Source: a virus. Taken from it: 41,324 nt of DNA. The position numbers were made by a program, and so were the translations under genes. Below are positions 37,801 through 41,324 of this stretch, piece by piece. Numbering within the stretch: position 1 is the first letter of the stretch; the number at the start of each line of letters is the position of its first letter. Location of the stretch: positions 1-41,324 of IMG/VR virus record IMGVR_UViG_3300044955_000119. One strand, given 5' to 3'. Below the pieces are notes generated by a model, which saw only the letters and a program-made list of their open reading frames with translations, did no database searches and was not told the origin of the DNA.

Positions 37801-38388
37801 ATGTCAAATTTATTTTATAACTTAGAAATCGAAGCGTTCCGTAAAGGACTTACTCTTAGAACTAAGGAATCACGCGAGTGGTTCCGCAAAAGAGTAGCGA
37901 ACCTACGACCAAACCGTAGTGAGCTGATGAAGGAAGAACCAATTCAGCTGAAAAATAGATCTATCGTAGGTAGTATGGCATTTTTCTTTTACGATCCGAA
38001 GCACAAAGAAACGCTACCATATTATGATTCCTTTCCCTTGGTGATTGTGGTTGGTCCGGCAGAAGGTGGATTCTATGGTTTGAATCTCCATTACCTTCCG
38101 CCGACCCTCCGCGCTAAGTTTCTTGATGCCTTATTAGAGATTACAAACAACAGACTATATGATGATTCCACTAAGTTTGATCTTTCGTATAATATGTTAC
38201 AACGTGCCTCAAAAATGAAGTACTTTAAGCCGTGCTTTAAGCATTATCTGACCAAGCACGTTCGTTCACGCTTTGCTATGGTTGAAGCGCCCGAGTGGGA
38301 AATTGCAACATTCTTACCAACAGCAGACTTCCAGAAGGCAACACGAGCACAAGTCTATGCTGATTCCAAGAGGAAGATAAATGGCTAG
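37801..38388 (+). CDS. DNA end protector-like protein (gp2 family, tentative)
   Basis: 195 residues with a highly patterned centre: 'SIVGSMAFFFYDPKHKETLP', 'YYDSFPLVIVVGPAEGGFYG', 'LNLHYLPPTLRAKFLDALLE', then 'FKPCFKHYLTKHVRSRFAMV' and 'PEWEIATFLPTADFQKA'. This is a conserved T4-type late gene product next to gp4. I believe it corresponds to T4 gp2 (gp64), which binds packaged DNA ends and protects them from RecBCD, since T4 also has gene 2 beside gene 4, but I cannot confirm this without a search. Starts 8 nt after the gp4 stop, without a clear ribosome site; a CATAAATA at 37788 is too close to serve as its promoter. Confidence 0.6.
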   Translation: MSNLFYNLEIEAFRKGLTLRTKESREWFRKRVANLRPNRSELMKEEPIQLKNRSIVGSMAFFFYDPKHKETLPYYDSFPLVIVVGPAEGGFYGLNLHYLPPTLRAKFLDALLEITNNRLYDDSTKFDLSYNMLQRASKMKYFKPCFKHYLTKHVRSRFAMVEAPEWEIATFLPTADFQKATRAQVYADSKRKING

Positions 38389-38989
38389 TATAGAAGAATT
38401 AAAAGGTACGATTACAGCTGGTGGCGGCGCTGCCTTACCTCATCAGTATCTTGTTCAGCTTCCAGCTATTCCCGGATCATCTTTAGGTGCAAGAGAAAGA
38501 AACGCTCTCTGTAAAGCAGCTAGATTACCTGGCAGACAGATTCTAACCTACGATCGTCAAGTAGGACTAATGAACCAGAAAATAGCATATGGCTATGGTG
38601 TTGCTGAAGTAACATTGGTATTTCATATCTTAAACGATTACAAGACAAGGGACTACTTTGAACGCTGGCAGAATTTAGCTGTTGATCAGGAAAATCAACA
38701 AATACAATATTCTGACAATTATAAATTCCCAGTGCAGATATATCAACTTAAAAAAGGTCAGTCTTTCCAACTTTTCGACCAATCATTTGGATTTAATCTT
38801 GGCCCATTCGGCGTAAACTTTAACATTGATATTGAAGCAAATAGATCAGCAACAGGCGTATATGCAGTAGAATTAGAAAAAGCATTTCCAACAACGATGA
38901 ACGGAATCGACTTTGCTGATGCCTCCACGGATCAAACATTAGAAATTTCTGTTGACCTTTCCTATAGAAATTGGAAGCGAATTAAATAA
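38381..38989 (+). CDS. Tail-tube-like protein, gp54/gp19 family
   Basis: 202 residues of the gp19-type tube fold: 'PHQYLVQLPAIPGSSLGARE', 'LCKAARLPGRQILTYDRQVG', 'MNQKIAYGYGVAEVTLVFHI', 'DYKTRDYFERWQNLAVD', 'NYKFPVQIYQLKKGQSFQLF' and 'EISVDLSYRNWKRI'. This is the layout shared by the tube protein gp19 and the baseplate tube initiator gp54. Because it lies with baseplate genes (gp26, gp48) and not beside the sheath gene gp18, the gp54 role (first ring that starts tube polymerisation) is favoured. GAGGAAG precedes the ATG at 38381, which overlaps the previous gene by 8 nt. Confidence 0.65.
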   Translation: MASIEELKGTITAGGGAALPHQYLVQLPAIPGSSLGARERNALCKAARLPGRQILTYDRQVGLMNQKIAYGYGVAEVTLVFHILNDYKTRDYFERWQNLAVDQENQQIQYSDNYKFPVQIYQLKKGQSFQLFDQSFGFNLGPFGVNFNIDIEANRSATGVYAVELEKAFPTTMNGIDFADASTDQTLEISVDLSYRNWKRIK

Positions 38990-39005: not shown

Positions 39006-39713
39006 ATGGCAATCCCCGTAATTAATGAAGTACCGAAGTACAGTTTGGTTATTCCATCGACCAAAAAGAAAGTAACATATAGACCGTTTCTGGTCAAAGA
39101 ACAAAAGATTCTTTTAATGGCTTTAGAGTCAAATGATAGAGAATCAATTGTAAGATCCATTTCAGATACGGTGGAAGCGTGTGTTATGGAACCGATCGAG
39201 ATCCATAATCTGGCTACATTTGATTTGGAATATATGTTTACCCAGATTCGTTCCAAATCAGTTGGCGAGCATAGTGATATTGTTTTAAAGTGTACTGAAT
39301 GTGATGCACAGAATGAAGTGTCAATTGATCTTGAAAAAATTCAAGTTAATGTACCAGACAAAGCACCAATCATTCAGTTAAATGATAAGTTCTCTTTAAA
39401 ATTAAGATATCCGAGGTATGATGATATATTACCGGCTGGAAGAAACGAAGAAGTTAAAATTAGTGAATTATATTCTGCCATGGCATTAGCAAGTCTAGAT
39501 TATCTTCTGACCGAAAATGAACAAATTCGTTTCGATGAAGAGCCCGAAGAAGAACGGATTAAGTTTTTAGATAATTTAAATACAGAACAATTTCAAAAGA
39601 TCCTTCAGTTTGTACAGTCGTTACCGAAGCTAACACACAAAGTAGAATTTGATTGTCATAAATGTGAACATCACAACTCTGTAGTCCTGGAGGGTCTGGA
39701 GAATTTTTTTTAA
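39006..39713 (+). CDS. gp26: Baseplate hub assembly protein gp26
   Basis: T4 baseplate-protein family (gp26), needed for hub assembly. The N-terminus 'YSLVIPSTKKKVTYRPFLVK' with 'EQKILLMALESNDRESIVRS' is the family signature. 'LEYMFTQIRSKSVGEHSDIV' precedes a zinc-ribbon half 'LKCTECDAQNEVSIDL', and the C-terminal 'VEFDCHKCEHHNSVVLEGLE' gives the second half, so CxxC...CxxC may bind zinc. It is 235 residues, close to T4 gp26 (208). It ends in a run of eight Ts with a TAA directly after two TTT codons; a -1 slip there extends the protein into the gp51-like frame (see the slippery site). GGAG lies 9 nt upstream of the ATG. Confidence 0.85.
   Translation: MAIPVINEVPKYSLVIPSTKKKVTYRPFLVKEQKILLMALESNDRESIVRSISDTVEACVMEPIEIHNLATFDLEYMFTQIRSKSVGEHSDIVLKCTECDAQNEVSIDLEKIQVNVPDKAPIIQLNDKFSLKLRYPRYDDILPAGRNEEVKISELYSAMALASLDYLLTENEQIRFDEEPEEERIKFLDNLNTEQFQKILQFVQSLPKLTHKVEFDCHKCEHHNSVVLEGLENFF
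39704..39712 (+). promoter_or_regulatory. Probable -1 frameshift slippery site at the gp26/gp51 junction
   Basis: The sequence AAT TTT TTT TAA contains T TTT TTT at 39704-39710 in the X XXY YYZ register, followed at once by the zero-frame stop. A -1 slip continues as TTA ATA AAC CTC and opens 62 further codons to the TAG at 39896-39898, giving a product of about 297 residues. The downstream frame has no good start codon with a ribosome site. Slippage of RNA polymerase on eight Ts is an alternative. Confidence 0.65.
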
Positions 39714-39736
39714 TAAACCTCTCTCATGAAAGCTTG

Positions 39737-39898
39737 GTGAATTATTATCAAACGAATTATCAGCTTATGGAAAACCACAAATATTCGTTAAATGAGCTTG
39801 AGACAATGATACCATGGGAGAGAGAAATTTACGTTGCTATGTTAATTGAAGATATGAAACAAAAAGAACAAATGAGAAAAGAAATACAAGGATTCTAG
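39737..39898 (+). CDS. gp51: gp51-like baseplate hub assembly protein, probably made as a gp26 extension
   Basis: A short frame, -1 relative to gp26, encodes 'NLSHESLVNYYQTNYQL', then 'HKYSLNELETMIPWEREIYV' and a charged helix ending 'KQKEQMRKEIQGF'. The pattern 'YSL.ELE.MIP.ER.IYV..L' is typical of small tail-chaperone extensions that follow a gp26 gene. The annotated start is the first in-frame GTG (39737), chosen only to give coordinates. The conserved sequence begins before it, at the slip site (39710), and there is no convincing ribosome site. So the natural product is more likely a gp26-gp51 fusion. T4 has gene 51 right after gene 26, which supports the name. It is followed by a tape-measure candidate, as in lambda G/GT-H. 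Confidence 0.6.
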   Translation: MNYYQTNYQLMENHKYSLNELETMIPWEREIYVAMLIEDMKQKEQMRKEIQGF

Positions 39899-39899
39899 C

Positions 39900-41324
39900 A
39901 TGGCTACTTTAGCAGAGATTAATGAAACTCTATTAGAACAGAATCTTTCTTTGAAAGAAATGGTTATAGAGCAAGAATCTACCAATGACGCAATCCAGTC
40001 ATTGGTATCAAAAATCTCTGCTCAAATGGAATTTGATGAAAGAGCTCGATTAAAAGATATCGAGAAAAAAAGAGAAGTTGTAGCGAAAGAAAAGAAAACA
40101 GATATTTCTGCTCCAAAAGGATTCGGCGAAGGGTTCAGACAGGGGCTTGGTGGTATACCGGGCGCAGGATTCTTCTCAGATCTTTTCTCGAAGGCGGGAC
40201 TAGGCGCTGGCCTTGTTCTTGGTGCTACAGGTCTAGCCGCTGCAAAAGCTTTAAAGACTGCAGTACTGGGCGGATTATTCGCTTATCTTGCACCCGAGCT
40301 AAGTGAAAAAGGCGGTGAAAAGATTATCGGTCTTATGAAATCAGTTGGTATTCCTATGGAATGGTACGATAACCTTCCACAGGAAATGAAAGATACGATT
40401 GAAACGGGGATTGGGGGTATAGCAGGGGCTATCGTTGCACAGATTGTACTTGCATTCACTGCTAAAAAAGGTCTTGGATTACTAGTAGGTCTTGGTGCTC
40501 TAATCACTAAAAAAGTGTTTAATGCAATTGCAGATGCCGGCAAAGCTGCTGGCACCCCGCCGAGCGCTGGGACTGCTGCGGGTGCTACAAGAGGCGCGGC
40601 GACTCGTAGATTAATGAGTCAAGCAGATGAAGCATTTCAACCTTTACCCCCGAAGGTTACTAGTCCTCTACGACAAGCAACTAAAAAGTTCGGTGCATCT
40701 GAGCTTATGAGGCGGGCTGAAGAAGGAATACAATCTGGTAAATTTAAGAACTTAGATGAAGCTGTAGAAGCACTAGCTAAATCTGGAAAAGCCGCTAAAT
40801 ATGGTAGACTGATACAGTTTATGGCCGGACTTGCTAAATTAGCGCCCGCTGCTGCAATTGCTGCAGACTTTATCGAACCAGCTTGGGCAATCTATACTGA
40901 CCAACCGGCTGACGTAGTGAAAAAAGAACTTGTGGGGGCTTTTGGTAGTTTAAGTGGGGGTACACTTGGGGCCATAGCTGGTGCCGGCGTAGTATCGATG
41001 GCTGCAGGTCCAGCTGCAGCAACTGGCATACCGGGATTACTTGGCGGAATGGTTGGTGGTGTAGCAGGTGCATTAAGCGGTGAGTATACAGCAGAAGCAA
41101 TTGCCAAGTTTTTGATGGGTGTCGGAGATGATCTAGAGCCTGTGAATAAACAGAAGACTAGTGCACTACAAAGAGAAGACGTAAGGGATACGAGATTCGA
41201 GACTGGATCATTACCTGCTTATGGTATGGGTTCGTTTGCAGATCTTGGCGTCGGTGAGATGAATCCATTCGGTACTGGTAACGTATTCACAAACAATCCT
41301 GAATATAAAATACCAGAACCACCG
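39900..41324 (+). CDS. Probable tail tape-measure/hub protein (partial at the right edge)
   Basis: The first 474 codons are visible; the gene continues beyond the window. Residues 1-60 form a charged helix/coiled coil ('LLEQNLSLKEMVIEQESTND', 'FDERARLKDIEKKREVVAKE'). Several glycine/alanine-rich hydrophobic segments follow, e.g. 'LGAGLVLGATGLAAAKALKT', 'GGIAGAIVAQIVLAFTAKKG' and 'GGTLGAIAGAGVVSMAAGPA'. Coiled coil plus membrane-active-looking segments is typical of tape-measure proteins, and the position directly after a chaperone pair (gp26/gp51) is where such genes lie. T4 gp29 is the expected counterpart, but I see no direct motif match. AGGA lies 8 nt before the ATG and the gp51 stop is 1 nt away. 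Confidence 0.55.
   Translation, partial: MATLAEINETLLEQNLSLKEMVIEQESTNDAIQSLVSKISAQMEFDERARLKDIEKKREVVAKEKKTDISAPKGFGEGFRQGLGGIPGAGFFSDLFSKAGLGAGLVLGATGLAAAKALKTAVLGGLFAYLAPELSEKGGEKIIGLMKSVGIPMEWYDNLPQEMKDTIETGIGGIAGAIVAQIVLAFTAKKGLGLLVGLGALITKKVFNAIADAGKAAGTPPSAGTAAGATRGAATRRLMSQADEAFQPLPPKVTSPLRQATKKFGASELMRRAEEGIQSGKFKNLDEAVEALAKSGKAAKYGRLIQFMAGLAKLAPAAAIAADFIEPAWAIYTDQPADVVKKELVGAFGSLSGGTLGAIAGAGVVSMAAGPAAATGIPGLLGGMVGGVAGALSGEYTAEAIAKFLMGVGDDLEPVNKQKTSALQREDVRDTRFETGSLPAYGMGSFADLGVGEMNPFGTGNVFTNNPEYKIPEPP

Follow-up and report, generated by a model that had tools for sequence, protein, structure and literature searches.

A gp26-gp51 junction in a T4-like phage with the features of a programmed -1 ribosomal frameshift for a probable tail assembly chaperone pair

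The T4 proteins gp26 and gp51 are listed as hub assembly chaperones in a passage of PMC3004832, which in 2010 described the essential gp51 as being of unknown function. The literature already links gp26/gp51 to the tail assembly chaperones (Vladimirov, Gautam & Davidson 2022, Virology 566:9-15, via PMC10885494 and PMC12846349). Passages of these citing papers state that some T4-like phages have a short gene alongside a longer, fused one, with no shift (PMC10885494, PRFect) and that poly-T shift signals occur in the short gene of T4-like phages (PMC12846349, citing Vladimirov 2022). G-T frameshifting is described, in a passage of PMC5009743, as conserved in long-tailed phages "except T4." A literature search that covered mainly titles and abstract openings returned no other account of a gp26/gp51 shift.

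The locus described here lies in a stretch of viral DNA of 41,324 nucleotides (IMG/VR record IMGVR_UViG_3300044955_000119), which we refer to as the window (Table 1). As far as the title and citing papers of Vladimirov 2022 tell, its products belong to the same families as the chaperones treated there and come in the same short and long forms, and in contrast to two-gene phages such as T4, the window phage has one gene with a putative shift. Like lambda gpG/gpGT, which a passage of PMC5009743 describes, the locus has two overlapping ORFs in a tail operon, a -1 heptamer toward the close of the first, a second ORF without a start of its own, and a short/long pair of predicted products. It differs from lambda in its larger zero-frame protein (235 residues), with an added C-terminal part, and in its heptamer, U UUU UUU, where lambda has G GGA AAG. 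It also resembles the -1 shift site of E. coli dnaX, where a homopolymer-type heptamer is likewise preceded, at some 10 nt, by an internal Shine-Dalgarno-like element. The dnaX heptamer is A AAA AAG and is followed by a strong hairpin, whereas downstream structure was not found in the window.

Table 1. Features of the gp26-gp51 junction and its neighbors (window coordinates)
Feature	Position	Strand	Remarks
Upstream tail-tube-like protein (gp54/gp19 type)	38381..38989	+	phrog_45 tail tube, E 7.3e-26
gp26-like ORF	39006..39713	+	Zero-frame product of 235 aa; putative short chaperone form, like lambda gpG
GGAGGG, internal Shine-Dalgarno-like element	39689..39694	+	9 nt 5' of heptamer; proposed shift stimulator
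Slippery heptamer T TTT TTT	39704..39710	+	Codons Phe234-Phe235, within T8 39704-39711; abuts TAA stop
-1 frame ORF, gp51-like C-terminal extension	39710..39898	+	62 codons; like lambda T
Next ORF, candidate tape-measure protein	39900..41324	+	Starts ATG, runs off the window

A preliminary description of this DNA had reported eight Ts directly before the gp26 stop, in the register T TTT TTT TAA, and a -1 frame that carries on for 62 codons without a proper start. Both observations are borne out by the letters. The run and stop occupy 39704-39713, and the zero-frame codons at the end of gp26 are GAG AAT TTT TTT TAA, with the stop at 39711-39713. The first codon after a -1 slip is TTA (39710-39712), from which the frame reads LINLSHES... 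and ends with TAG at 39896-39898. The -1 frame does not open until 43 nt ahead of the gp26 stop, and the earliest codons at which it could start are TTG 39734, GTG 39737, and ATG 39767, none of them preceded by a Shine-Dalgarno-like motif by the test used. The junction has no stop-start overlap (TRATG). Read through the slip, the predicted fusion product would have 235 + 62 = 297 residues and read ...NFFLINLSHESLVNYYQ... across the junction. In-frame heptamers of the form X XXY YYZ occur 66 times in the 13,378 codons of the 32 ORFs in the window, 4 of them within 15 codons of a gene's end. T TTT TTT is found in frame only once in these ORFs, at the end of gp26. Three more T8 runs exist in the window, at 105 (+), 36785 (+), and 36086 (-), none of which provides a slippery heptamer in the reading frame of a listed gene.

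The zero-frame product matches PF12322 (T4_baseplate, E 1.5e-56) and phrog_150 (E 2.5e-59). The -1 product matches phrog_634, "baseplate hub assembly catalyst" (E 7.1e-23), as well as the C-terminal columns of phrog_150, the same family that the zero-frame product matches. By these matches, the two products can be assigned to the T4 gp26/gp51 protein family, that is, PF12322 plus the gp51 tail.

We consider it highly probable (roughly 0.88) that this one gene gives rise to a tail assembly chaperone pair by a programmed -1 ribosomal shift at T TTT TTT. Most ribosomes would stop at the TAA and release the 235-residue gp26, the short form. A minority would pause over the internal GGAGGG and slip back one base on the heptamer, where both Phe-tRNAs can re-pair, and reading would go on as TTA ATA AAC... 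to yield the 297-residue gp26-gp51 fusion, the long form. If lambda gpG/gpGT is a guide, the short form would be present in many copies and the long form in few, and together they would cover the tape-measure protein and bring in tail tube subunits. T4 would make the same two forms from two paralogous genes, 26 (short) and 51 (long). The slippage itself, its rate, the role of the stimulator, and the chaperone function are what we infer from the frames, the heptamer, its conservation, and the homology of the products, all of which are established by sequence.

A gp26 tblastn search matched 707 phage records at E 1e-5. The nearest relative is phage C48C1 (Kyanoviridae), with 43% identity in gp26 and 62% in the -1 part. 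The loci that we compared comprise IMG/VR loci, some of them from a single-protein search of viral contigs, and the records of named phages. Outside the T4-type set, gp26 was matched at 155 loci, of which 7 were dropped (5 truncated, 2 too short), leaving 148 readable junctions; two of these, L035 and L136, are on the same contig. At 90% identity the 148 loci form 76 clusters, which are not independent of one another. When a gp51 homologue was sought by profile in all three frames at each junction, it was found in the -1 frame in 146 of the 148 and in the +1 frame in 2. A natural in-frame fusion of gp26 and gp51 was not encountered among the 148 junctions. Likewise, in a count over 84 loci, all 82 with a gp51 match had it in the -1 frame, the others being T4 (L001) and a cut locus (L034). 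The -1 relation spans many genera and several families, with protein conserved on either side of the junction. Going by the taxonomy in the records, the arrangement is present in the Straboviridae nt-1, CC2, and LPCS28, the Kyanoviridae P-SSM2, Bellamy, S-WAM1, and Mosig, and the Pootjesviridae RHph_N34, as well as in the phages Marzo, ACP17, and W-14.

One of the two +1 cases, near position 2749 of a Stenotrophomonas-type phage contig (L128), has a slip site of five Ts, whereas six are present in the near-copy L127 and in phage Marzo, with which L128 clusters. This shortage of one T points to an indel or read error in L128. The other, S-SCSM1 (L095, 1080-1983), has gp51 in the +1 frame despite T TTT TTC, which may be a real variant or a sequence error.

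The slip site itself is also conserved. An in-frame T TTT TTN is kept in 69 of the 76 clusters (41 TTC, 24 TTT, 2 TTG, and 2 TTA) in 68 of them with its end 0 to 2 codons ahead of the stop and in one 8 codons ahead. The preliminary description had proposed that a programmed -1 shift joins gp26 and gp51 and had suggested looking for conservation of the T-run and the frame in relatives; the comparison thus supports it on both counts. The opposite pattern, relatives with a separate gp51 start and ribosome site and no conserved slippery run, was also sought and is not what the relatives of the window show. Codon usage at the site is unusually constrained. Leaving out the 7 clusters with Ile or Leu instead of the first Phe (residue 234), this Phe is encoded by TTT in 69 of 69 heptamer clusters, whereas the TTT share is 37% at the second Phe and ranges from 48 to 82% across nine other Phe columns. 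All 69 clusters also have a T just ahead of the first Phe codon, although the heptamer search itself required a T there. At that same position, 64 of 64 two-fold codons end in T, compared with 56 to 85% in 16 other such columns. Beyond the slip, the first -1 residue after the two Phe is Arg in 40 of the 41 TTTTTTC clusters, whereas the zero-frame residue in the same clusters varies (17 Val, 13 Gly, 8 Ala, and one each of Ser, Glu, and Asp). Since Arg is nearly invariant here while the zero-frame residue is free, selection appears to act on the -1 reading just past the slip. In the alignment, the slip is where homology of the -1 product sets in, as F-[RL]-[IL]-x-[LV].... Ribosomes that read across the junction in the -1 frame should leave just such a pattern, for which a separate gp51 gene would hardly account.

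In the remaining 7 of 76 clusters, gp51 is in the -1 frame without an X XXY YYZ heptamer, and ATT TTC or CTT TTC stands in its place; the stop is part of a TAATG stop-start overlap in 4 of the 7 and of TAATT in 3. Counted as loci, 22 lack the heptamer, namely, an Ackermannviridae-like group (L093 and L107 to L124), Vibrio phage K393 (L090), Pseudomonas phage Cygsa01 (L135), and L128. L128 aside, these loci may shift at T TTC or re-initiate.

As for stimulatory elements, the GGAGGG of the window is predicted to hybridize to the anti-Shine-Dalgarno sequence at -9.8 kcal/mol, and no start codon of the -1 frame is located at initiation distance from it. Over the clusters, hybridization peaks at -11 nt from the heptamer, with a mean of -6.2 kcal/mol; at most other positions it is close to zero, apart from a second and shallower minimum of about -2.3 near -34. 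A null of synonymous sequences gave a mean of -5.0 (standard deviation of the null means, 0.16; lowest of 200, -5.5). Much of the signal thus follows from the conserved Leu-Glu/Gln-Gly residues, and synonymous choice adds to it. Downstream RNA structure was considered as a general stimulator and dropped, being absent in the window (z between -0.4 and +0.2) and variable elsewhere. It is strong in C48C1, nt-1, and W-14 (z of -3 to -4) and modest over the 69 clusters (mean z of -1.30 versus -0.06 to -0.55 at control positions).

Among other explanations, gp51 might be a separate small protein made from its own start codon or, by termination-reinitiation, from a coupled one. It is drawn as a separate gene in many GenBank records, in keeping with usual annotator practice, and a TRATG overlap in the -1 frame is present in 13 of the 69 heptamer clusters, besides the 4 of 7 clusters without a heptamer. 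We regard this explanation as improbable for the window, which lacks both a stop-start overlap and a start preceded by a Shine-Dalgarno motif. The position of the first -1 start after the slip is scattered from codon 2 to codon 34 in 68 clusters; 24 of these have no -1 start upstream or within 10 codons, and only 5 have one in that range with a Shine-Dalgarno-like motif. Moreover, the -1 protein is conserved from the slip on, ahead of any start, and a separate start would leave the fixed TTT codon unexplained. In addition to a fusion, the 13 heptamer clusters with TRATG could make some free gp51.

Slippage might also take place during transcription, the RNA polymerase producing mRNAs with one T fewer or more on the T8 run and, in this way, templates for both products. 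Homopolymer runs of this size can slip, and T8 is found in the window and in 19 of the 69 clusters (the window's own included), a recurrence that also makes it unlikely that the T8 is a read error. Runs of six or seven Ts are too short for efficient transcriptional slippage, however, and the run is T6 in 45 clusters and T7 in 5, which disfavors polymerase slippage as a general mechanism. Nor would the polymerase need a conserved phase and codon register of the heptamer, as ribosomal slippage does, and the register is conserved here. Taken together, this places transcriptional slippage among the quite improbable readings, somewhat behind a separate start. Least credible by far is that gp51 is the remnant of a gene once fused and later disrupted, whether by a frameshift mutation or by an error in sequencing. 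In its favor, the two parts are naturally fused in frame in T4 gp51, errors are common in homopolymers, and L128 is one T short of L127, but such a break would have to recur as the same -1 relation in nearly every junction, across genera and families, with the in-frame form missing from all 148 and the protein conserved on both sides.

Ribosomal frameshifting is thus the reading that we prefer for the window and its relatives, and T4 has to be considered separately. Its gene 26 (208 residues, - strand) and gene 51 (249 residues, + strand) are separate and divergent, and both products match PF12322. T4 gp26 aligns to the zero-frame product of the window. Residues 76-286 of the fusion align with residues 64-249 of T4 gp51, so that the -1 part falls at the gp51 C terminus; the -1 ORF by itself aligns to residues 207-249 with 42% identity. 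Judging from the sequences, T4 does not shift; its genes 26 and 51 are divergent paralogues that match the short and the fused product, respectively. All eight T4-type genomes read have separate genes 26 and 51, as against the one gene with a -1 extension of the window, and in seven of them the pair is divergent. In the eighth, Klebsiella phage KP15 (L130, 1501-2795), genes 51, 26, and 25 are in tandem on one strand, an order that looks like a duplication before inversion. The motif NNT TTT TTN is absent from gene 26 in all 8 annotated T4-type genomes and from T4-type gp26 in all 5 readable IMG/VR loci, four of which are near-copies of T4. The preliminary description had treated gp26 and gp51 as the same device as lambda G/GT and had seen in it a tie between the T4 hub assembly genes and the tail chaperones. 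The proposed shift would extend to the relatives of the window; the T4 genes themselves, however, are not joined in this way, and the link is not new. The window junction would accordingly be a well-supported further example of a device already described, for proteins that, as far as the citing papers of Vladimirov 2022 tell, were already in print as chaperones. That a passage of PMC5009743 names T4 as the exception to tail-chaperone frameshifting can be understood because its two products are encoded by separate paralogous genes.

To place the two arrangements relative to each other, a tree was built of 48 proteins, 16 T4-type (26 and 51) and 32 single-gene, the latter taken from 32 of the 148 loci; the gp51 rows were trimmed of their last 48 residues. 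All 16 T4-type proteins fall on one side of a branch (100/99) and the 32 single-gene proteins on the other. The eight gp51 form one group (100/98), as do seven of the eight gp26 (97/97). The gp26 row of KP15 is long and strays, and placing all eight gp26 together gave an AU p of 0.41. A tree constrained to keep the four shift-type Straboviridae together with the T4-type rows was not rejected either (p 0.106). The T4-type branch would fit one duplication. Because the tree is unrooted, we infer the direction, with the shift first and the duplication later. Conceivably, and we offer this as a tentative account somewhat short of even odds, the T4 exception arose by a tandem duplication (compare 51-26-25 in KP15), after which one copy lost the slippery codons (26) and the other fused the frames (51), a later inversion producing the divergent pair. 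In the same account, the Ackermannviridae-like clade would also have left the heptamer and may use stop-start coupling or a single-tRNA slip at NTT TTC.

If slippage occurs, the source phage, which is marine and T4-like, would make its two tail-building helpers from one gene as lambda does and T4 does not. The essential T4 gp51 should then be replaceable by a gp26-gp51 fusion. In the GenBank records that we examined, gp26 and gp51 are given as two genes with arbitrary starts, or gp51 is not given at all. The predicted fused chaperone is for this reason missing from the examined cyanophage, pelagiphage, and vibriophage annotation.

A chaperone role of gp26 is likely in view of its modeled fold, its place after a tail-tube-like gene, and the shift device. 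An AlphaFold2 model of the zero-frame product has a mean pLDDT of 87.7. Its residues 1-86 match the HK97 gp13 tail assembly chaperone (2ob9_A) with Z 7.2 and rmsd 3.4 over 85 residues. In contrast to this likeness in fold, the identity is 8%, and the window protein has some 150 further residues, in part zinc-ribbon-like. The top PDB structure match is 3fgx (Z 7.6), followed by 2ob9, with the next row at 4.3. The match is moderate, and a Z below 8 can arise by common arrangement. Foldseek alone was weak (E 1.2, probability 0.75), and searching PDB sequences with the gp26 profile gave nothing convincing (best E 0.24).

The preliminary description had placed the junction just upstream of the tape-measure gene. 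An ORF does follow directly, and its identity as tape measure is less certain, with a weak, partial match to phrog_167, tail length tape measure protein (E 1.1e-4). Among 10 relatives, the ORF downstream of gp51 matched a tape-measure family (E <= 0.01) in 2; for L087 and L096, the ORF taken was not the very next one.

The gp26 of the window carries two C..C motifs, C96/C99 and C217/C220, and toward its C terminus the model is similar to zinc ribbons (3vpb, Z 3.3). Two such motifs are present in 24 of the 69 clusters, one in 34, and none in 11. In the BFVD, the gp26 model matches proteins of the distant phages Bacillus SP-15, Campylobacter CP220, Ralstonia RSL1, and Achromobacter Motura with E below 1e-5. 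On the strength of the modeled structures, these proteins are possible unrecognized chaperones.
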